From: Euzebya tangerina
GTDB taxonomy: Bacteria > Actinomycetota > Nitriliruptoria > Euzebyales > Euzebyaceae
DNA length: 64,000 nt
Assembly: GCF_003074135.1 (NCBI RefSeq)
Contig: NZ_PPDK01000001.1
Coordinates: 2,728,001-2,792,000, forward strand
Direction: 5' to 3'
Made by a program: the position numbers and the translations under genes. The notes under the pieces were generated by a model. It saw nothing but the letters and a program-made list of their open reading frames with translations, searched no databases and was not told the origin of the DNA. Each line of letters starts with the position of its first letter. Position 1 is the first letter of the stretch. This document shows, piece after piece, positions 1,425 through 42,666 of this stretch.

Positions 1425-4400
1425 CTACGGACCGATGTCGGCCCCGGCGTCCCCGAGGAGCGCTTCGAACTCGTCCACCTCGCGTTGGGTGATCGACGTC
1501 TGGTCACCGACCACCACCACCAGCTGGACCCGGTCGGCGACCAGCTCCGCGACGCGCGGGGCGGTGTCGGCACCTCCCTGCCCGTCGATGATGGCAACCG
1601 CGCCGCCGGTGTCCCCGGCCACGGGTCCCGCCGTCAAGGTGTTGCGCCAATCCAGTCCGGTCGTGACATAGACCGTGTCAGGGACCACCCCGTCCTCGAT
1701 CGAGGCGGCCAGGACGGCCGCGGACGTCTCGAACCTCGTGGCCCCCGCGATGCGGCCGACCTCGAGCAAGCCCGCCAGCTCGGCCGCGACGGCGTCCGAG
1801 ACCGCAGCCGTGCCGCCGATGACGGCGGCCCGTCGGATGTCATGTCGTTGGATGGTGCGCGCCGTCTCCTCCGGGAGCCGGTCCCGGTTCACCAGCAGGA
1901 TCGGGCGTCCGGTTGCGGACGCGTAGCCCGACACGGCCATCGCGTCCGGCCAGCCACGCTGGGGATCGGTGTTCTCCCCCTCGACGACGACGGCCTCGTC
2001 GTGACGCTGGCCCAAGGCACCAGCCACGAGCAAGGAGGTCTCGAAGCGGTTGCGCCCACCGATGCGCCGCACGTCGAGTCCGGCCTGGAGGAGCGCATCG
2101 GCCACGGCCGGTCGGATGGCGTCATCGCCGCCGAGCAGGATCGCCCGCGTCGCCCTCAGCCGCTCGAGCTCGATGCGGAGGGGGTCCACCAGCGTCTCGG
2201 GGTCGGTCAGCAGCAGGGGGGCCTGCAGGGCTGCGGCGAGCGGGCCGCCCGAGAGGCTGTCGGCGTAGACGTCATCACGGCCGAGGACCACGATCGGTGC
2301 CTCGTCGTAGGTCAGGACCGAGAGGGCGATCGACTGCTCGATGGGGGTCTGCCCCGAGAGACGGCTCACCGTGACCGGCTGGTTTGGCGCCGGCGGTGGT
2401 GGCGGTGGTGGTGGGGGCGCCGGATTCTCGTTCTGCAGGTGGTCTGGTATCCCATCCCCGTCGCTGTCTGCCGGCGCCGCCGGGTTGCCCGGGTCACCGG
2501 GCTGGAACGGTGCGTCGTAGCCGGCCTCCTCACCGTCCGGGGTGCCATCGCCATCCGCATCCTGATCGATCCGATCGGGCAGGCCATCCCCGTCTGAGTC
2601 CGGATCCGGCAGGGGGTTTGCCGCGATGCGATCGTCCCAGCCGTCGCCGTCCGGGTCGACGAAGTCGGCGACACGGCCGCTGTTGTCAGGATCCTGCCCA
2701 CCGGCCTCGATCAGGTCGGGGAGGCCGTCGTCGTCGCTGTCGAGATCGAGGAAGTCCGGGTCGCCATCGCCGTCGGAGTCGAGTGGCCCGCTCGGGTTCG
2801 CCGCAGTCGGATCGAACTCACTCGGGGGGTAGCCAGACTCGACACGGTCCGGCACGCCGTCGTTGTCGGAGTCCCGGTCCAGCCGGTCGGGAACCCGATC
2901 GCCGTCGCTGTCGGGATCGGGAAGACGTGAGGCCTCGAGGGCGTCGTCCCAGCCGTTGCCGTTCGCGGCGTCGGACTGGTCGTCCACCCGGCCGTCACCG
3001 TCGCTGTCGGCGCCGCCCGCCTCGACCAGGTCGGGGATGCCGTCGCCGTCGCTGTCCAGGTCCAGGTGGTCTGGTGCTCCGTCGCCGTCGCTGTCCGCGG
3101 TCCCCTCGGTGAAGTCGGGGATGCCGTCGCCATCGGCGTCCAGGTCGCGCCGATCCGCCACGCCGTCGCCGTCGGTGTCCCCCTCGCCCTCCTCGGCATC
3201 GGTCAGGCCGTCACCGTCCGCGTCGGGCAGGTCGTCGTCAGCAGCCCGGAAGGTGGCAGACGACTCACCGACCAGCCCGTAGACGTAGGTGTCGATGTTG
3301 CGGCCATCGCCGAAGCTGTCCGCCGTGAACGCCCCCCAGGTGTGGAAGCCATCCGGCTTGCCGTCACCGTCGCCATCCGTCGGGTTCGCCCGGTTGCCCG
3401 ACCGCGCACCTTCGGGGGTGTTCGCGGTGGCGTCGAAGACGTTGTCGCCGGTGAACCCGGCCGACAGGTCGTCCCAGAAGACGTTGGTATCGCGGAGTTC
3501 GAGGAAGTCGCCGAAGGCACGAGCCGCGAAGATCGTCAAGCCGGGGTTGTAGGTGCGAGGCGCCTCATCGTCGTCGGTCCCGCCTGAGGTCTCCACATCG
3601 CTGGCGATGAAGTGGAACTCGCCACCTCGCACCTGGATGCGGGCCTGGTAGGTGCCCAGGGGGACCGGTGTCCCGAAGGCGTCGTTGCCATCCCAGGGCA
3701 CCTCGTTCCGGCCCGGGGTGGCGCGCCCGATCAGCAGCACGTCACCGGGGTCGCCGAAGACCCCACCGCCGTCCACGTCGACGCTGATCGCGTAGTTGCC
3801 ACCGCTGATGTCGGTTGTGAAGTTGAACGTGCCCGAGTCCTGGATGCCGTCGGTACCGGGTGAGAACGTGGCGTCGGCACCGGGGCCGGAGTCGTCCAGG
3901 AACTCGGCATCGGTGACCGTCGGCGGCTCGACCGGCCGGGAACCGGCGACGGCGGGGTACCCCAGATAGAGGGGATACTCGGGGGTGACCGTCGAGGTGG
4001 ACTGCGGTGCGGAGATGCCGGAGAACGGTGGATCAAGCCCCAGGGCGTTCGCCGAAAGGGTGTAGCCCCCGCCGGCGAAGGTGCCGAGGTCCAACTGCCA
4101 GACGTAGTTGTCGGTTCCGTCCGCGCGGTGTCCGGGCGCCAGTGCGAACAGATTCACGTCGGTGGCCACGGACTCGCAGAACAGGTTGCACGGGGGACCG
4201 GCGTCCTGGGAGAGCAGTTGCCACTCGTAGGAGAAGGTCCGACCACGCGGGCGGGTCGGGTCCGGGTCGGTGGTGCTGTTGGGCGTGACGGTGATGTCGA
4301 AGCGGTCCAAGGTGGTCCCCGCCGTCACGTCCAGCGCGATCCGGTACGTGCCCGGGGTCGTGGGTGTGTATCGGAAGGGGTTGGCGAGGGGCCCGGTCAT

Positions 4401-30058: not shown

Positions 30059-31696
30059 ATGGCCATCCCGATGGCAGAGTCCGGCGCGGCATGGTTGGAG
30101 CGATCGCGCCGGCTGCACGAGGGCGGGGACGTCGCCGGTGCAGTCCAGGCCCTGGAGGAGGCGTATCGCTGGCTGCTGGAGGAGGGTCGGCTGGTCGAGG
30201 CCGCCCGGGCGGCACGGACCCGTGCCTATCAGTGCGCCCTCGACGGCGCGACCGCGAAGGCCGGGGGCTGGCTCGGGCAGGCTCGGACCCTGGCTGCGCA
30301 ACACGGCGACCCCGTGGAGGTCGCGTGGCTCGAGCTGTTCGATGCCATGGGCGATCCGGAGGAGGATCGCGGGCTGCGCCGCCTGGAGGCGCTGCGACAG
30401 CGGGCTCGCGACGTGCACGCGCCTGATCTGGAGTGCGACGCCACGGCCTTGGTCGGGCACCGGAACGTGCAGCGCGGCCGCGTCGCGGCGGGGATGGCGC
30501 TGCTGGACGAGGCGCTGACGGCGGTCTGTGTCGGCCGTGTCGGCGAGGTCGTCGTCACCGAGGGCGCCTGCTGCCTGCTGCTCTCGGCGTGCGAGTTGAC
30601 CGGCGATGTGGGCCGCGCCGACCAGTGGCTGGAGCGGCTCTCCGCCCGATCCAGCAGCGCCCGATCCAGCAGCGCCCGATCCAGCAGCGCCCGATCCAGT
30701 ACCGCCCGATCCGGCAACGCCCGAACGGGTGCCCCGACGTCGTTGTCGCTGCGTCCGATCTGCCTGAGCTATCACGGTGGGATCCTGATGGCGGCCGGCC
30801 GGTGGCCGGAAGCGGAGGCGGCGCTGGCCGAGGCACTGGTGGAGCTCGGCGACAGCTACGCCTTCGCGCGCCACCAGGCCCGTGCCCGGCTGGCCGACCT
30901 CCGCTGCCGCCAAGGTCGCCACGAGGCGGCGGCGCGCCTGCTGGCCGGTGTCGAAGAGGACCCGGACGCCGCCGCTCCACTGGTGACCATCCACCTGGCG
31001 TTGGGTCGGGCAGCGCTTGCGGAGGAGCGCCTGATGCGGTCCCTCCCGGGTACCGATGGCGTCAACCGTGCTCGGCTGTTGGCTGTGGAGGTCGACGTGG
31101 CGCTCGCAGGTCACGATCCCGATCGTGGGCTCCGTGCCGCCGCCGAACTGGCCGACCTCGCGGCGGCATCCCGGGTCGCGAGCGACTTCCTGACCGGTCT
31201 CGCCGCTCTGGCCCGGGGGAAGGTCCTGGCCGCCACGGCGACGTCGGCCGAGGCCGCTGATGCCTTTCGAGCGGCGGTCGCCGCGTTCGCCGCTGCCGCG
31301 ACCCCGCACGAGCTCGCCCGTGCCAGGGTCGGACTTGCGGAGGTGCTCGCAGCGGAGGCGCCGGAGGTGTCGGAGGCGGAGGCCCGGCGGGCCATGAGGA
31401 CCGGGCACGACCTGGGCGCCGCGCCACTGGTCGACGTGGCAGCCGCCGTGCTGCGCACCCTCGGTCGTCCGGTCCGCTCCGGCGCTCGCGGCGAGACCCG
31501 GTTGACTGACCGTGAACACGAGGTCCTGGCGCTGATCGGTGAGGGCCTCAGCAACCCCGAGATCGCGACCCGACTGGTGATCAGCCGAAAGACCGTCGAG
31601 CACCACGTCAGTCGGATCCTGATGAAGCTCGGGGTGCGCAACCGCACGCAGGCAGCGGCCCACGCCCTCCGGGCCAGGCCATCGGATCACGAATAG
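30059..31696 (+). CDS. LuxR-family transcriptional regulator with helical-repeat sensor region
   Basis: A 545-residue protein; ATG 30059 has AGGA 8 nt upstream, with ATG 30050 and 30071 as alternatives. The C-terminal 60 residues are a LuxR/GerE HTH ([24 protein letters not shown], then [10 protein letters not shown]). The body is 400 residues of TPR-like helical hairpins, as in large ATPase-less regulators of the MalT/LAL kind, but there is no Walker motif. An RSSSA repeat interrupts the middle. It is divergent from the acyl-CoA dehydrogenase across the triple operator region and could control it, which is only a guess. Confidence 0.85.
30647..30721 (+). repeat. 15-bp tandem repeat coding RSSSA in the LuxR-type gene
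   Basis: Five 15-bp units run 30647-30721. The first three (cgatccagcagcgcc) are identical; the fourth and fifth differ by a few bases, coding RSSTA and RSGNA. They form an Arg/Ser/Ala insert between helical hairpins of the sensor region. Fresh tandem copies suggest replication slippage and length variation among strains. Confidence 0.9.
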
Positions 31697-37502: not shown

Positions 37503-38000
37503 ATGGCTGCTGCAGCGGAGGGTGAGGGGGTCACGCGCGTTCTGGTCGTCGATGACGACTCCAACGTCCGGTTCACGGTGCGCGTGGCGCTCGAAGGGGC
37601 CCCGCCCAACGGTCAGCCCATGGAGATCATGGAAGCTGCTGGAGGCAACGCGGCTCTGACGTTCTTGCAGAGCCAGAAGATCGATGTCGTCCTGCTGGAC
37701 GTGATGATGCCGGACATGGACGGGTTCGCGGTGCTCAAGAAGCTGCGGACCGAACAGCAGAACGAGGTTCCCGTCGTCATGCTGACGGCCCGCGGCCGCG
37801 AGTCGGACGTCGCCAACGCCTTCCGTGCGGGCGCCGATGCCTACGTGAGCAAGCCGTTCGACGTCGATGAGTTGGCGCGGATCACCCAGGACATGGCCGA
37901 TATGCCACTGCGCGAACGTCGGAAGCGTCGGATCGAGGAGATGGAGCGCGCCGAGTTGCTGCTGCAGCTCGAGTACAGCTTCGACTTCGACGACGAGTAG
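37503..38000 (+). CDS. Receiver-only response regulator
   Basis: A 165-residue protein from ATG 37503. A CheY-like receiver domain is seen: acidic pocket VVDDDSN, the phosphorylation Asp in VVLLDVMMPDMDG, Thr in MLTARG, and Lys in YVSKPFD. After it only a short charged helical tail (ERRKRRIEEMERAELLLQLEY) follows, without an output domain. Such proteins act through protein-protein contacts. There is no histidine kinase beside it. It is 7 bp from the S1 gene. Confidence 0.92.
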   Translation: MAAAAEGEGVTRVLVVDDDSNVRFTVRVALEGAPPNGQPMEIMEAAGGNAALTFLQSQKIDVVLLDVMMPDMDGFAVLKKLRTEQQNEVPVVMLTARGRESDVANAFRAGADAYVSKPFDVDELARITQDMADMPLRERRKRRIEEMERAELLLQLEYSFDFDDE

Positions 38001-38100
38001 GCGGCTCCCCGACGGGGCGCGGAGGGGCCGTTGGGCTGTGCGGGTCCCCTCAGTCCGCCGTCACGGACCGAGAGGACACGCAGCGAGTGCCCGGTGCGAC

Positions 38101-39153
38101 CTAGCCGTCGAGGACGCCCTGCTCGGTCAGGAACTCGCTGGCGACCTCAGCCGGATCGGCGAGGTCGATGCGGATCTGCCCCAGCATCTCTGAGACGTTC
38201 TCCGTCGTGAGCACCGCGGAGACGGCGTTGAGGGCCTCGGTGGCTGCCTCGTTGTTCACCTCGGTCTGGATGACCGGGACGATGTTCTCCGCCGGCTGCA
38301 GACCCTGGTCGTCCTCCAGCAGCACCCACTCGTTGGCGCTGATCACGGCGTCGGTGGTGAACAGCAGGGCGACGTCGATCTCACCGGAGCTCAGCGCTTC
38401 GACCGTCACGGGTCCGCCAGCGTCCAGAGACCGGAAGTCGCCGAACGTGATGCCGTAGGTCTCCTCGTACCCGGGGATGCACAGGGGCCGCTCGGGGCAC
38501 TCCGGCGGACCGCCGAGCGTCAGGTCACCGGCTTCGTCAGCCAGGTCGCTGACGGTCTCGAGGCCGAGTTCATCGGCGGTCTCGGGCCGGACGACCAGGC
38601 CGTTCTTGTCCTGGGCCTCGGCCGGCTCGAGGACGTCGACCCCCTCCTCGGCGAACTCCTCACGGAGTAGCTCGGTGGTGGCCTCGGTGTCCGAGCTGGC
38701 CTCGCCGGCCCCACCGTTCAGGAACTCCAAGGCCGTCCCGACATACTCCGGGTAGACATTGATCTCGCCCGACGTCAGTGCTGGGAGGACCACTTCGCGC
38801 GCGCCCAGCTGATAGCGGCGCTCGACGGTGAAGCCCGCCTGCTCCAAGGAGAGGGCGTACATCTCGGCCACCAACTCCTGCTCGTCGAAGTTCGTGGACC
38901 CGACGACGAGTTCGCCCAGGTCCTCGCCCGCTGCGGCGGCGTCGTCCGGCTCATCGGTCCCGTCGTCGGAACCGTCGGTCTCCTCGTCGTCCACCATGGT
39001 CTGATCTTCGGTGGCCGGTACGTCCTCGGTGGAGTCGGCGGCGTCCGTTCCATCGTCCGCATCGTCGGCGGCGCAAGCGCCGGCCACCAGGGCCAGCGCG
39101 AGCATCAGCAGCAGCGTGACGAGCCGGCGCGGCGATCGTGTCGTGTTGGTCAT
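38101..39153 (-). CDS. opuCC: Substrate-binding lipoprotein of a glycine betaine/osmoprotectant ABC transporter
   Basis: A 350-residue lipoprotein from ATG 39153. The lipobox LVAGAC is followed by an Asp/Glu/Ala-rich linker and an OpuAC/ProX-type binding domain: VVGSTNFDEQELVAEMYA, YQLGAREVVLPALTSGEINVYPEY, and ALLFTTDAVISANEWVLLEDD. The family binds quaternary amines such as glycine betaine, choline or carnitine. It is the last gene of a four-gene minus-strand operon, 85 bp after the second permease. Confidence 0.9.
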   Translation of the reverse strand: MTNTTRSPRRLVTLLLMLALALVAGACAADDADDGTDAADSTEDVPATEDQTMVDDEETDGSDDGTDEPDDAAAAGEDLGELVVGSTNFDEQELVAEMYALSLEQAGFTVERRYQLGAREVVLPALTSGEINVYPEYVGTALEFLNGGAGEASSDTEATTELLREEFAEEGVDVLEPAEAQDKNGLVVRPETADELGLETVSDLADEAGDLTLGGPPECPERPLCIPGYEETYGITFGDFRSLDAGGPVTVEALSSGEIDVALLFTTDAVISANEWVLLEDDQGLQPAENIVPVIQTEVNNEAATEALNAVSAVLTTENVSEMLGQIRIDLADPAEVASEFLTEQGVLDG

Positions 39154-39238
39154 GACCTGAGATTCCTTCGTGTTGTGGACATCGGACTGATCTGTGATGG
39201 CCGCCTCGACCCTGCCCGGTGCTGGGGCCGACGAACCA

Positions 39239-40054
39239 CTACGTCTCGACCCGCCTGTGCTGATCAGCGGGCTCGGCCCGTCGCTCCTGTGCGGCCTCGC
39301 GCAGCTGCAGGCCCTTCGGGACGATCAGACGCTGGATGCCGGCCAAGCCGGCCTCGGTGACGACCGACAGGACAGCAACGAGCACCGCCCCACCGATGGC
39401 GAGGATCTGTGCGGTCGTGGAGAACTGGAGGCCGCGATTCAGGCCGGAGATGATCGGCAGCCCGAGCCCGCCGAAGCCGACGATCGCGGCCAGGGTCACC
39501 GTGGCCACGATGTTGATCGCGCCCGTCCGGATGCCCGCCATGATCACGGGCAACGCCATGGGGATCTCGACCTGGAACAGCTGTTGGGTACCCGTCAAGC
39601 CCATGCCCTTCGCGGCGTCGACGATCTCCGGGTCGACCTGCGTCACCCCGACGTAGGTGTTGGCGAAGATCGGTGCCACACCGATCAGGGCGAACACCAG
39701 GACGAGCAGCGGATAGGAGAACCCACCGATCTGGAACGCGACGAGCAGCAGCCCGAAGGCCGGGATCGCCCGGAAGGCATTGGCGATGTTGATCGACACG
39801 ACCGGTGCCCGGCGCGTGTGGGCGAGCCAGAGACCCAAGGGCAGAGCCAAGACCAGGGCGAGCGCCAGTGACCACGCGCTGAGGCCGAGGTGCTGCGCCA
39901 CCAACGTCGGGACGCCATCGATGGCGCTGAAGTCGTTGCCGAGCAGCCACGAGACCGCCTCAGCGGTGAGCGACTCCTCCGCCTGCGCCAGGACGATGAC
40001 CACGTCGCCGCCCGACTCGAGCGTCATCTCGTCGCCTCCCGGCTCCAGCGTCAT
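39239..40054 (-). CDS. opuCD: Permease of the osmoprotectant ABC transporter (second subunit)
   Basis: A 271-residue permease from ATG 40054, which overlaps the stop of the upstream permease (ATGA). ATG 40027 is an equally good alternative because the start region is duplicated. After a short N-terminus come about six membrane helices, the EAA-type loop VDAAKGMGLTGTQQLFQVEIPMA, and TVTLAAIVGFGGLGLPI. It forms the channel with the other permease. A charged tail ends the protein. Confidence 0.88.
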   Translation of the reverse strand: MTLEPGGDEMTLESGGDVVIVLAQAEESLTAEAVSWLLGNDFSAIDGVPTLVAQHLGLSAWSLALALVLALPLGLWLAHTRRAPVVSINIANAFRAIPAFGLLLVAFQIGGFSYPLLVLVFALIGVAPIFANTYVGVTQVDPEIVDAAKGMGLTGTQQLFQVEIPMALPVIMAGIRTGAINIVATVTLAAIVGFGGLGLPIISGLNRGLQFSTTAQILAIGGAVLVAVLSVVTEAGLAGIQRLIVPKGLQLREAAQERRAEPADQHRRVET

Positions 40055-40075
40055 CTCGTCGCCTCCCGGCTCCAG
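40022..40075 (-). repeat. 27-bp tandem duplication of a ribosome-binding-site/start module
   Basis: Two perfect 27-bp copies at 40022-40048 and 40049-40075. On the minus strand each contains GGGAGG followed 7 nt later by ATG, so both ATG 40054 and ATG 40027 have the same ribosome binding site. The first copy also contains the stop of the upstream permease. The protein therefore begins MTLEPGGDE MTLESGGD, or only the second part. Confidence 0.95.
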
Positions 40076-40740
40076 GGCGAGAGCCTGCGCTCCAACGCGA
40101 CCAGCAGCAGATCGAGCACCAAGGCGAGGGCAACCGACAGCACGAACCCGACGACGGCCGGGGTCAGGTTCTGTCGCTGGAAGCCACGCAGGATGATCTG
40201 CCCCCAGCCGCCCTGGCCGATCAGCGCGGTCACCGTGACCAGGCCGATCGTCGTCACCGTGGCGATCCGGACGCCGGCGATGATGACCGGGAGGGCCAGC
40301 GGCAACTCGACCGACCGCAGCAACGCAGCATCGGTGTAGCCCATTGCCCGAGCCGCCTCGACCACCTCGGTGGGCACGTTGTCGAGCCCCGCGATGGTGT
40401 TGCGGACCAGGATCAGCAGCGTGTACAGGGTCAGCGGGATCAGCGCGGTCGTGGTCGACAGACCCGTCAGGGGCACGAGCGCGACGAACAGCGCGAGGGA
40501 CGGGATCGTGAAGATGATCCCGGTCACCTGCAGGACGGGTGTCTGCCACCGCCGCCGACGTGAGGCGAGCACGGCCAGCGGGAAGGCGACCAGGAAGCCG
40601 ATCACCACAGCCAGGACGGTCAGCGTCACGTGCTCGATCCCGCGCTCGACCATCGTGTCGGTGTTCTGCTGGATCCACTGCCAGTCGGGGAAGGGCCGCC
40701 CCTGCGCCAGGACGACCAGCGCTGCCTCACCGGTCTGCAT
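40051..40740 (-). CDS. opuCB: Permease of the osmoprotectant ABC transporter (first subunit)
   Basis: A 229-residue permease from ATG 40740, 5 bp after the ATPase gene. Helices and the EAA-type motif are present (VVEAARAMGYTDAALLRSVELPLA, then LIGQGGWGQIILRGF). Length is typical of OpuCB/ProW-like half permeases. Its stop sits inside the duplicated 27-bp module and overlaps the next ATG by 4 nt. Expected to pair with the second permease as a heterodimer. Confidence 0.9.
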   Translation of the reverse strand: MQTGEAALVVLAQGRPFPDWQWIQQNTDTMVERGIEHVTLTVLAVVIGFLVAFPLAVLASRRRRWQTPVLQVTGIIFTIPSLALFVALVPLTGLSTTTALIPLTLYTLLILVRNTIAGLDNVPTEVVEAARAMGYTDAALLRSVELPLALPVIIAGVRIATVTTIGLVTVTALIGQGGWGQIILRGFQRQNLTPAVVGFVLSVALALVLDLLLVALERRLSPWSREATR

Positions 40741-40745
40741 GTGCG

Positions 40746-41831
40746 CTAGCCCAACGCCTCGGTGACCAGCTCCCGGGTCACGAGGCCCTCATAGCTGCCA
40801 CCTGGGCCGACGCGCACGGCGACACCATTCGGTGAGGCCACGAGGACGTCGAGTGCGGTCCGCAGTGTGTCGTCGGCCAGGACCACGGCGGCGAACGGTC
40901 GGGCCACGTCGGGTGTGAGCGGGCTGGTGACGTCGACCACGTCGACCCAGCCATGGACCGTCCCGTCGTCGGCCAGCACCGTCACCCACTTCTCATCGGC
41001 CGCCTGGGCGGCTTGGCGGACCTCTTCCGGGCCATCACCGACGCGGGCGACCGGGCCTGGGTCGGCGGTGACCTCGCTGACCGGGATCAGCGCCAGCCTG
41101 CGGAGTTCACGCTCGGCCCCCAGGAACTGCTCGACGAACTCGTTGGCGGGGCGGGCCAGGATCTCGGTCGGCGTGTCCAACTGCTGCAGTCGGCCGCCCT
41201 CCGCCAGGATCGCGATCCGGTCGCCCATGGTGATGGCCTCGTCGATGTCGTGGGTGACGAAGACGATGGTCTTCTTCACGTCGGACTGCAAGCTCAGGAA
41301 CTCCTCCTGCAGCCGGTGTCGCACGATCGGGTCCACGGCCCCGAACGGCTCATCCATCAGCAGCACCGGCGGGTCGGCGGCCAGCGCGCGGGCCACTCCC
41401 ACACGTTGCCGTTGGCCGCCGGAGAGCTGATGTGGGTAGCGCTCGCCCAGTTCCGGTGACAGACCCACCGTCTCGACCAGCGTGTCGACCCGCTCGCTGA
41501 CGCGGTCCGCCTCCCAGTCGAGCAGCCGCGGAACGGTCGCGATGTTGTCCGCGACGGTCCGGTGGGGGAACAGGCCGATCTGTTGGATGACGTACCCGAT
41601 GCCTCGCCGCAACTCGGCCGCCTCCAATGAGGTGACGTCCTGGCCGTCGACGGAGATGGTGCCGCCGGTCGGTTCGACCATCCGATTGATCATGCGCATG
41701 GCCGTGGTCTTGCCACAGCCCGACGGACCGACCAGGACCAGGAACTCGCCCTCCTCGACCTCGAAGGACAGGTCGTCGACGGCCACCGTCCCATCGGGAT
41801 AGCGCTTGGTGACGTGGTCGAAGGTGATCAC
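40746..41831 (-). CDS. opuCA: ATP-binding protein of the osmoprotectant ABC transporter, with CBS region
   Basis: A 361-residue ATPase from GTG 41831. Walker A GPSGCGKTT (about 38-46), Q-loop YVIQQIGLF, signature LSGGQRQRVGVA, Walker B VLLMDEPFGA, and HDIDEAITMG are all intact. The C-terminal 120 residues are a CBS-like pair, as in OpuCA/ProV, which sense ionic strength in known members. It is the first gene of the operon, on the opposite strand to sufR. Confidence 0.92.
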   Translation of the reverse strand: MITFDHVTKRYPDGTVAVDDLSFEVEEGEFLVLVGPSGCGKTTAMRMINRMVEPTGGTISVDGQDVTSLEAAELRRGIGYVIQQIGLFPHRTVADNIATVPRLLDWEADRVSERVDTLVETVGLSPELGERYPHQLSGGQRQRVGVARALAADPPVLLMDEPFGAVDPIVRHRLQEEFLSLQSDVKKTIVFVTHDIDEAITMGDRIAILAEGGRLQQLDTPTEILARPANEFVEQFLGAERELRRLALIPVSEVTADPGPVARVGDGPEEVRQAAQAADEKWVTVLADDGTVHGWVDVVDVTSPLTPDVARPFAAVVLADDTLRTALDVLVASPNGVAVRVGPGGSYEGLVTRELVTEALG

Positions 41832-41840
41832 GAGGGCAAG

Positions 41841-41846
41841 AGCTTA
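41841..41846 (-). promoter_or_regulatory. Candidate -10 of the osmoprotectant transporter operon
   Basis: On the minus strand TAAGCT ends 9 nt before the GTG start at 41831, consistent with a leaderless transcript. No clear -35 is seen. Confidence 0.35.
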
Positions 41847-41899
41847 CCGGGCCTGTCACCGACGCGGCCCGATCCGATGGTCAGAGAGCCCACCCCCGG

Positions 41900-41934
41900 T
41901 TGAGACTTTCACAACATGAACTAGACTTAAGTCT
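41900..41934 (+). promoter_or_regulatory. sufR promoter with overlapping palindromic operator candidate
   Basis: TTGAGA at 41900-41905 and TAGACT at 41922-41927 have a 16-nt spacer, so transcription should begin at or next to GTG 41935 (leaderless). A perfect 12-bp palindrome AGACTTAAGTCT (41923-41934) covers the -10 and abuts the start codon. A second inverted pair, GTTG (41899-41902) and CAAC (41912-41915), overlaps the -35 side. The first is the natural site for SufR autoregulation. Confidence 0.7.
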
Positions 41935-42666
41935 GTGACCGCCACACGCCCCCTGATCGACCTGCTGGGCGAGACGCGCGCGCAGATCGTGACCCGGATC
42001 CAGCGGTCCCCGCAGACTGCCCCGGAGCTGTCCGAGGCACTCCAGATCAGCCAAGCGGCGATCCGGCGACACCTGGCGGCGCTGGCCGGCGACGACCTGA
42101 TCGCCGGCGAGGCCGTCCACGACGGCTCGATGGGTCGTCCTCGTGAGCGTTGGACCCTGACGGCCCGAGGCAAGCGACTGTTCGCCGACCGGTCTTCGGA
42201 GTTCGCCGACGAGCTCCTCGACCACCTGGAAGCCGCACACGGTCGCACGGCCGTGCTGGACTTCCTCAGGACCCGAAGCGAGGCGCAAGCCGACCGCTAC
42301 GCCGAGCGGCTCTCCGGTGCTGCAACCCCACAGGAGCGAGCCGAGTTGCTCGCGGCCGCCCTCAGCGACGACGGCTTCGCGGCGCGGGTCGAAGAGACCG
42401 ACGCCGGCTCCGGTGCAGCAGAGCGGAACTCCGGCGGCCAGACTGGCCGCACCCTGCAGTTGGTCCAGTCCCACTGCGCGATCGAGGGCATCGCTGCTGA
42501 GCATCCCGAGATCTGCGCACACGAGGCGGCGTTGTTCAAACGCCTGCTGGGTACTCCTGCCCAGGGGGTCAAGATCTCCCGCAGGACGACCATCGCCTCA
42601 GGCGGCACCGCCTGCATCTGCCACATCGAAGTCCCAACCGAGCCAGCCACATCAACCTCCACCTAG
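41935..42666 (+). CDS. sufR: SufR-type Fe-S-sensing transcriptional repressor of the suf operon
   Basis: A 243-residue protein from GTG 41935. The N-terminal winged helix (TAPELSEALQISQAAIRRHLAA, then GRPRERWTLT) resembles ArsR/DeoR-type HTH proteins. The C-terminus has the Cys set expected for SufR: HCAIEGIAAEHPEICAHE and a final ACICH. These ligate a [4Fe-4S] cluster. With the cluster, SufR represses suf; loss derepresses it. First gene of the suf block, 16 bp before sufB. Confidence 0.9.
   Translation: MTATRPLIDLLGETRAQIVTRIQRSPQTAPELSEALQISQAAIRRHLAALAGDDLIAGEAVHDGSMGRPRERWTLTARGKRLFADRSSEFADELLDHLEAAHGRTAVLDFLRTRSEAQADRYAERLSGAATPQERAELLAAALSDDGFAARVEETDAGSGAAERNSGGQTGRTLQLVQSHCAIEGIAAEHPEICAHEAALFKRLLGTPAQGVKISRRTTIASGGTACICHIEVPTEPATSTST

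Follow-up and report, generated by a model that had tools for sequence, protein, structure and literature searches.

A perfect 27-nt tandem duplication at the overlapping junction of two permease genes in a predicted osmoprotectant ABC operon of Euzebya tangerina

Within the analysed stretch of Euzebya tangerina DNA (64,000 nt, hereafter the window), four minus-strand genes follow one another in the operon-like order ATPase, first permease, second permease and OpuAC-type binding protein. The first gene (40746–41831, minus strand) encodes an ATP-binding protein of the betaine/proline/choline family (ProV/OpuCA-like), which scores 331.6 bits against TIGR01186, above the curated cut-off of 326.6, and also matches PF00005. 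It is followed by permease 1 (perm1; ORF at 40051–40740, minus strand; PF00528, E = 1e-23), which ends on a TGA stop at 40053–40051, and by permease 2 (perm2; 39239–40054, minus strand; PF00528, E = 8e-17), whose translation from the first ATG is 271 aa long. The last gene (38101–39153, minus strand) encodes a substrate-binding protein with an OpuAC domain (PF04069, E = 3e-50) that reaches 116 bits against NF049931 (OsmF), below the cut-off of 400. An ATPase, two BPD permeases and an OpuAC binding protein thus stand in tandem, as in osmoprotectant ABC operons, and judging from the families the four genes are predicted to encode an ordinary osmoprotectant importer of the glycine betaine/choline/proline type. 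A promoter/terminator scan of positions 37900–42000 found no promoter-like site on the minus strand and no terminator-like site.

The junction between the two permease genes is where this operon departs from the ordinary. Positions 40022–40048 are identical to positions 40049–40075, which confirms the perfect 27-bp head-to-tail tandem duplication described in the initial annotation, and the exact self-match at lag 27 is even longer, a 29-nt run from 40020. A first-order Markov model of the 2.2 kb around the array, resampled 100 times, gave longest exact self-matches of 8–11 nt at any lag of 10–100, compared with the 29 nt observed. Tandem Repeats Finder reports an array at 40003–40075 (73 nt) with 2.7 copies and 93% matches. 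Read on the minus strand, copy 1 (40049–40075) holds the C-terminal codons of perm1, the Shine–Dalgarno (SD) sequence GGGAGG and an ATGA overlap with its ATG at 40054; copy 2 (40022–40048), identical to copy 1, lies within perm2 and brings a second SD together with an ATG at 40027; and a partial, diverged third copy downstream of the two full ones (40003–40021, minus strand) has a weak GGGCGG and lacks an ATG. Each full copy reads GGGAGG-CGACGAG-ATG, so the repeat does double the SD and start codon of perm2 in the GGGAGG-N7-ATG arrangement first noticed, and the stop of the upstream permease does fall inside it, the TGA at 40053–40051 being contained in the first ATGA. At this ATGA (40051–40054, minus strand) perm2 start 1 overlaps the perm1 stop with a gap of −4. 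The 4-nt stop/start overlap and an SD within the upstream gene give perm1/perm2 the form of a coupled ATGA pair.

Repeats of this kind appear to be uncommon at gene junctions in the same genome. We sampled 464 kb, consisting of the window and twenty 20-kb stretches, in which exact self-matches of at least 20 nt at lags of 15–60 occur at 14 places, 11 of them with a lag that is a multiple of three. A strict GC3-based gene caller identified 123 same-strand gene pairs in this sample, 25 of them with an ATGA-type overlap, and beyond perm1/perm2 no other strong junction repeat was found among the 123 pairs. The only further repeats were two weak ones at non-overlapping pairs, and the event is therefore rare in this genome.

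Other repeat families were seen along the way. Three more tandem arrays lie in the window: a second 27-nt array at 216–374 (5.9 copies, 94% matches), which by eye looks like a nine-residue coding unit repeated in tandem, with many P, G and Q residues; a 15-nt array at 30643–30724 (5.5 copies, 92% matches); and an 84-nt repeat at 2991–3180 (2.2 copies, 76% matches). Genome-wide, the sequence GGTCAGGTTCCCC has 120 exact copies, 60 per strand, with none for the reversed control, and many of them stand in head-to-tail arrays with 20–21 nt spacing, as in a dispersed short minisatellite family. Its sites include C1:98950-99042, C1:1195115-1195247 and C1:2276453-2276565, which lie outside the range of the window, as well as C3:136633-136745, L067:7330-7470 and L053:3520-3570.

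We compared the orthologous junction in three congeners, whose perm2 proteins are 65, 65 and 63% identical to that of the window. All three keep the stop–start overlap (ATGA, ATGA and GTGA, gap −4), and no junction repeat was found in any of the three. Since the congeners keep the overlap without the repeat, the coupling would predate the duplication, which on these sequences occurs in this species alone of the four genomes compared within the genus. The comparison was then widened to 81 loci, comprising all 26 from a class search and, from a phylum search, 15 loci and 40 of 62 non-locus places taken in listed order. Junctions were measured at 79 of the 81 (40 of 41 and 39 of 40, with L029 and L096 missed), and 27 of them have a direct −4 gap (11 and 16 in the two batches). 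Requiring an exact run of 12 nt or more and a copy identity of at least 0.8, we find a tandem duplication across the permease junction in three of the 79, namely the window (lag 27), L040 (lag 56, 95%) and L043 (lag 17, 82%), the last with a 12-nt run for which we estimate near one chance occurrence in 79 loci, so that its case rests on place and frame. L040 and L043 belong to different species within a single genus, and a common origin is possible.

The two additional duplications resolve the junction differently from the window. In L040, perm1 ends in ...ATPWARGRR and a stop, and its ATGA opens a 19-aa mini-ORF, MSGLHSILEWSATPRARRR; the ATGA of this first mini-ORF opens another, MSGLHSIPEWSATPRARGR, whose end meets the perm2 start. 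In L043, the 17-nt repeat produces the mini-ORF MTRGRR, which closes on the perm2 ATG. Periods of 56 and 17 are both of the form 3n+2, and for that reason a mini-ORF can end on the next ATGA, whereas a period of 27 is of the form 3n, so that in the window the first ATG reads straight into perm2.

The consequence at the window is that perm2 has two start codons 27 nt apart and two possible lengths, as first proposed: the in-frame ATGs at 40054 (271 aa) and at 40027 (40025–40027, minus strand; 262 aa). With the anti-SD sequence that we take to apply here, both full-copy SDs pair at −13.0 kcal/mol, and the SDs of perm2 in the congeners are weaker, at −4.4, −4.4 and −8.0 kcal/mol; this stronger SD may have altered expression. 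Predicted folding of the mRNA leaves the second site more open than the first, with mean unpaired values for SD/ATG of 0.34/0.70 at site 2 versus 0.17/0.39 at site 1. This could favour the second ATG in de novo initiation, making some of the shorter perm2 product plausible. An AlphaFold2 model of perm2, built from 34 aligned sequences (mean pLDDT 89.8), places residues 1–14 in a coil (block pLDDT 63 and 71) and begins the first helix at residue 15, and the N-termini of the 34 orthologues vary in length and are mostly shorter. Because the modelled N-terminus is a coil and the N-termini of orthologues vary freely, the added residues probably do little.

From these observations, we think it likely that the window carries a local tandem duplication, specific to this species, that spans the coupled perm1/perm2 junction, kept the coupling and is near-neutral. 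Copy 1 would still supply the end of perm1, leaving the upstream protein untouched, and ribosomes finishing perm1 would restart at the overlapping ATG at 40054 and translate through the copy. Read in frame, the 27-nt unit would extend the perm2 N-terminus by nine residues (MTLEPGGDE), which would lie in the coil that precedes the first helix. The second SD and ATG would then be a spare, able to yield a perm2 form nine residues shorter, and a ribosome sitting on the first ATG would be expected to cover the second SD. We infer the coupling with the first ATG as the main start, the near-neutrality, and an origin by slippage or misaligned replication. The duplication would be tolerated because the first copy ends perm1 and the overlapping ATG restarts perm2 in frame, and with both protein cores undamaged and the coupling kept, the change should be close to neutral.

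There are several other ways to read the same junction. One places the true start of perm2 at a third in-frame candidate, the GTG at 40003 (40001–40003, minus strand), which best matches the position of the congeners' starts: it lies three residues ahead of the VLAQ motif, compared with 2–5 in the congeners, and its predicted start-codon accessibility is 0.99. If perm2 began there, both full copies would effectively be intercistronic spacer. We consider this unlikely, given that the SD at the GTG pairs at −8.4 kcal/mol versus −13.0 for the full copies and that the first ATG retains the ATGA overlap found in the congeners.

A second alternative treats the array as a slippage-prone device that tunes translation by varying the number of SD–ATG units. 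It draws on the two identical units, on the ability of a perfect repeat to slip, and on the growth in copy number seen elsewhere, with three or four units at the junctions in G091, G064, G294 and G100. An effect of the repeat on perm2 translation is possible, with SD scores equal for both sites and folding predictions mixed. A dedicated tuning device is nonetheless doubtful, as the repeat is in frame and hence no on/off switch, has a low copy number, showed no variation in a comparison with one genome per species, and is absent from the three congeners. The suggestion that the array is a small phase-variation-like device is not supported on frame grounds: the 27-nt unit is divisible by three in length and is present just 2.7 times, both starts share one frame, and gain or loss of a unit would keep the perm2 frame and merely add or remove nine residues.

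It is rather improbable that the extra residues MTLEPGGDE were themselves selected to give two functional perm2 isoforms. The two good start sites and the acidic character of the extension would suit such a role, but the extension is modelled as a lower-confidence coil, and the variable, mostly shorter N-termini of the orthologues again speak against it. An assembly artefact, which might be suspected for a perfect repeat when the assembly has 12 contigs, is very improbable in view of the diverged third copy in frame, the similar arrays in other assemblies and the length of the array, since 73 nt is shorter than common sequencing read lengths. Least probable of all is the insertion of a mobile, MIRU-like element into the junction, which would fit the position exactly at the ATGA overlap, as PMC12548453 describes for MIRUs, but not a unit built from the end of perm1 itself, and which we reject since the 27-mer is restricted, at up to three mismatches, to two adjacent sites in the 4.78-Mb genome (reversed control, 0).

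Apart from the permease junctions, doubled SD–ATGA motifs were scanned in one draw of 396 genomes of the phylum. Doubled GGAGG-N7-ATGA, GGAGG-N6-ATGA and GGAGG-N8-ATGA motifs gave 15, 12 and 9 matches, and the reversed pattern gave 1, 5 and 1. A repeat was called strong at a copy identity of at least 0.8 or an exact run of at least 14 nt, a threshold set after the first results had been seen, and by this definition 18 of the 36 rows are strong unit repeats, which we merged by hand into 14 loci. Eight loci have a period that leaves a remainder of 2 on division by three (G239, G091 twice, G017, G026, G294, G022 and G100) and six a remainder of 0 (the window, listed as G000, G041, G266, G310, G119 and G286). 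No strong locus (0 of 14) has a remainder of 1, for which the chance is about 0.004 (0.007 two-sided), when the sole strong row with that remainder (G294, lag 46) is counted as two units of 23. The telling contrast is that between 3n+2 and 3n+1, because repeats with a 3n period are to be expected within coding sequence in any case; at the strong loci it stands at 8 to 0 (by arithmetic, 0.0078 two-sided). The other 18 rows, which fall short of the strong threshold, divide into 11, 4 and 3 for remainders of 0, 2 and 1, with no clear bias of 2 over 1. At nine of the 14 loci (six with remainder 2, three with remainder 0), the downstream ORF read from the last ATG has 200 aa or more, while G239, G041, G266 and G286 lack one of that length from the second ATG, and at G022 the repeat is weak (0.83, run 8) and the ORF from the second ATG has 99 aa. 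A looser scan of the class returned seven matches in 6 of 66 genomes, with a control of 0, and added G064. There is also an additional junction duplication, of 47 nt, upstream of another gene. Like the 56- and 17-nt duplications at the permease junction and the strong loci, it has a period that would leave coupling intact, in keeping with our reading of the window.

The 3n+2 loci show how such arrays can be organised. In G091 (L140/L147), three 17-aa mini-ORFs (MTTAGAT...GQEERR/Q, then a stop) run in relay into a 480-aa ORF; in G064 (L133), two 16-aa mini-ORFs lie between the upstream ORF and a 321-aa ORF; in G294 (L151), two 8-aa mini-ORFs precede a 250-aa ORF; and in G100 (L169), two 12-aa mini-ORFs are followed, across a TGATG junction, by an ORF of 501 aa or more. 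We read these four arrays as probable gene-junction duplications that preserved ribosome hand-over. One to three repeated mini-ORFs before a large ORF are also seen in G026 (L144) and G017 (L142), and in the chains of all six genomes nearly every mini-ORF ends on the ATGA that opens the following frame. A different arrangement occurs in G073 (L136, L146 and L148), where a dispersed 52-nt sequence with two SD–ATGA motifs 36 nt apart occurs three times in the genome, with a different sequence after it each time.

The distribution of periods could reflect a frame rule, in which coupled junctions tolerate 3n duplications, giving a longer downstream protein, and 3n+2 duplications, giving mini-ORF chains, and purge 3n+1 duplications because these break the coupling. 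We offer the rule tentatively, as a conjecture that may well prove wrong, and beyond the window it is a lead drawn from sequence comparison. If it is true, 3n+2 chains would pass ribosomes along through successive ATGA overlaps, and the arrays would be natural bicistronic-design ladders in which the number of units could tune the downstream gene. Avoidance of 3n+1 periods would also mean that genomes reveal, independently of reporters, ATGA termination–reinitiation under selection, and that multi-unit mini-ORF relays provide natural variants for measuring ribosome passage across successive overlaps. Taken alone, the window case is a minor and probably near-neutral alteration, which we class as an in-frame form of local junction duplication.

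Compared with known systems, the window operon has the same gene set as osmoprotectant ABC operons of the OpuC/ProU type, and only the duplicated junction sets it apart. Phase-variable simple-sequence contingency loci are tandem repeats with a changeable copy number, and the window repeat resembles them in that it could in principle change its own. It differs in that its unit length is divisible by three, its copies are few and a change in their number has no on/off consequence, where a contingency locus would switch frame or promoter with a change in units. Our search of the open-access literature found no report of a duplicated Shine–Dalgarno sequence. Termination–reinitiation at ATGA overlaps is established, as Huber et al. 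2019 (PMC6728339) set out, and perm1/perm2 likewise share an ATGA with the SD inside the upstream gene; they differ from that account in that the restart region is duplicated and a second in-frame start is on offer. The closest natural counterpart is the MIRU, which PMC12548453, following Supply et al. 1997, presents as apparently mobile, present in many mycobacteria, inserted at start codons and carrying an ORF that is coupled at −4. Similarly, the window unit sits at a stop–start overlap with an ATGA inside, and its coupling would be comparable. Unlike a MIRU as portrayed there, it is 27 nt long, local, derived from the flanking gene and in frame with perm2; no copies of it are dispersed through the 4.78-Mb genome at up to three mismatches, and its period keeps the perm2 frame open, so that it forms no separate mini-ORF. 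The likeness to that description is closer in the 3n+2 cases, where each unit is a mini-ORF that would hand on to the next, and a coupled ORF of the unit's own is found in L040, L043, G064, G091 and others.
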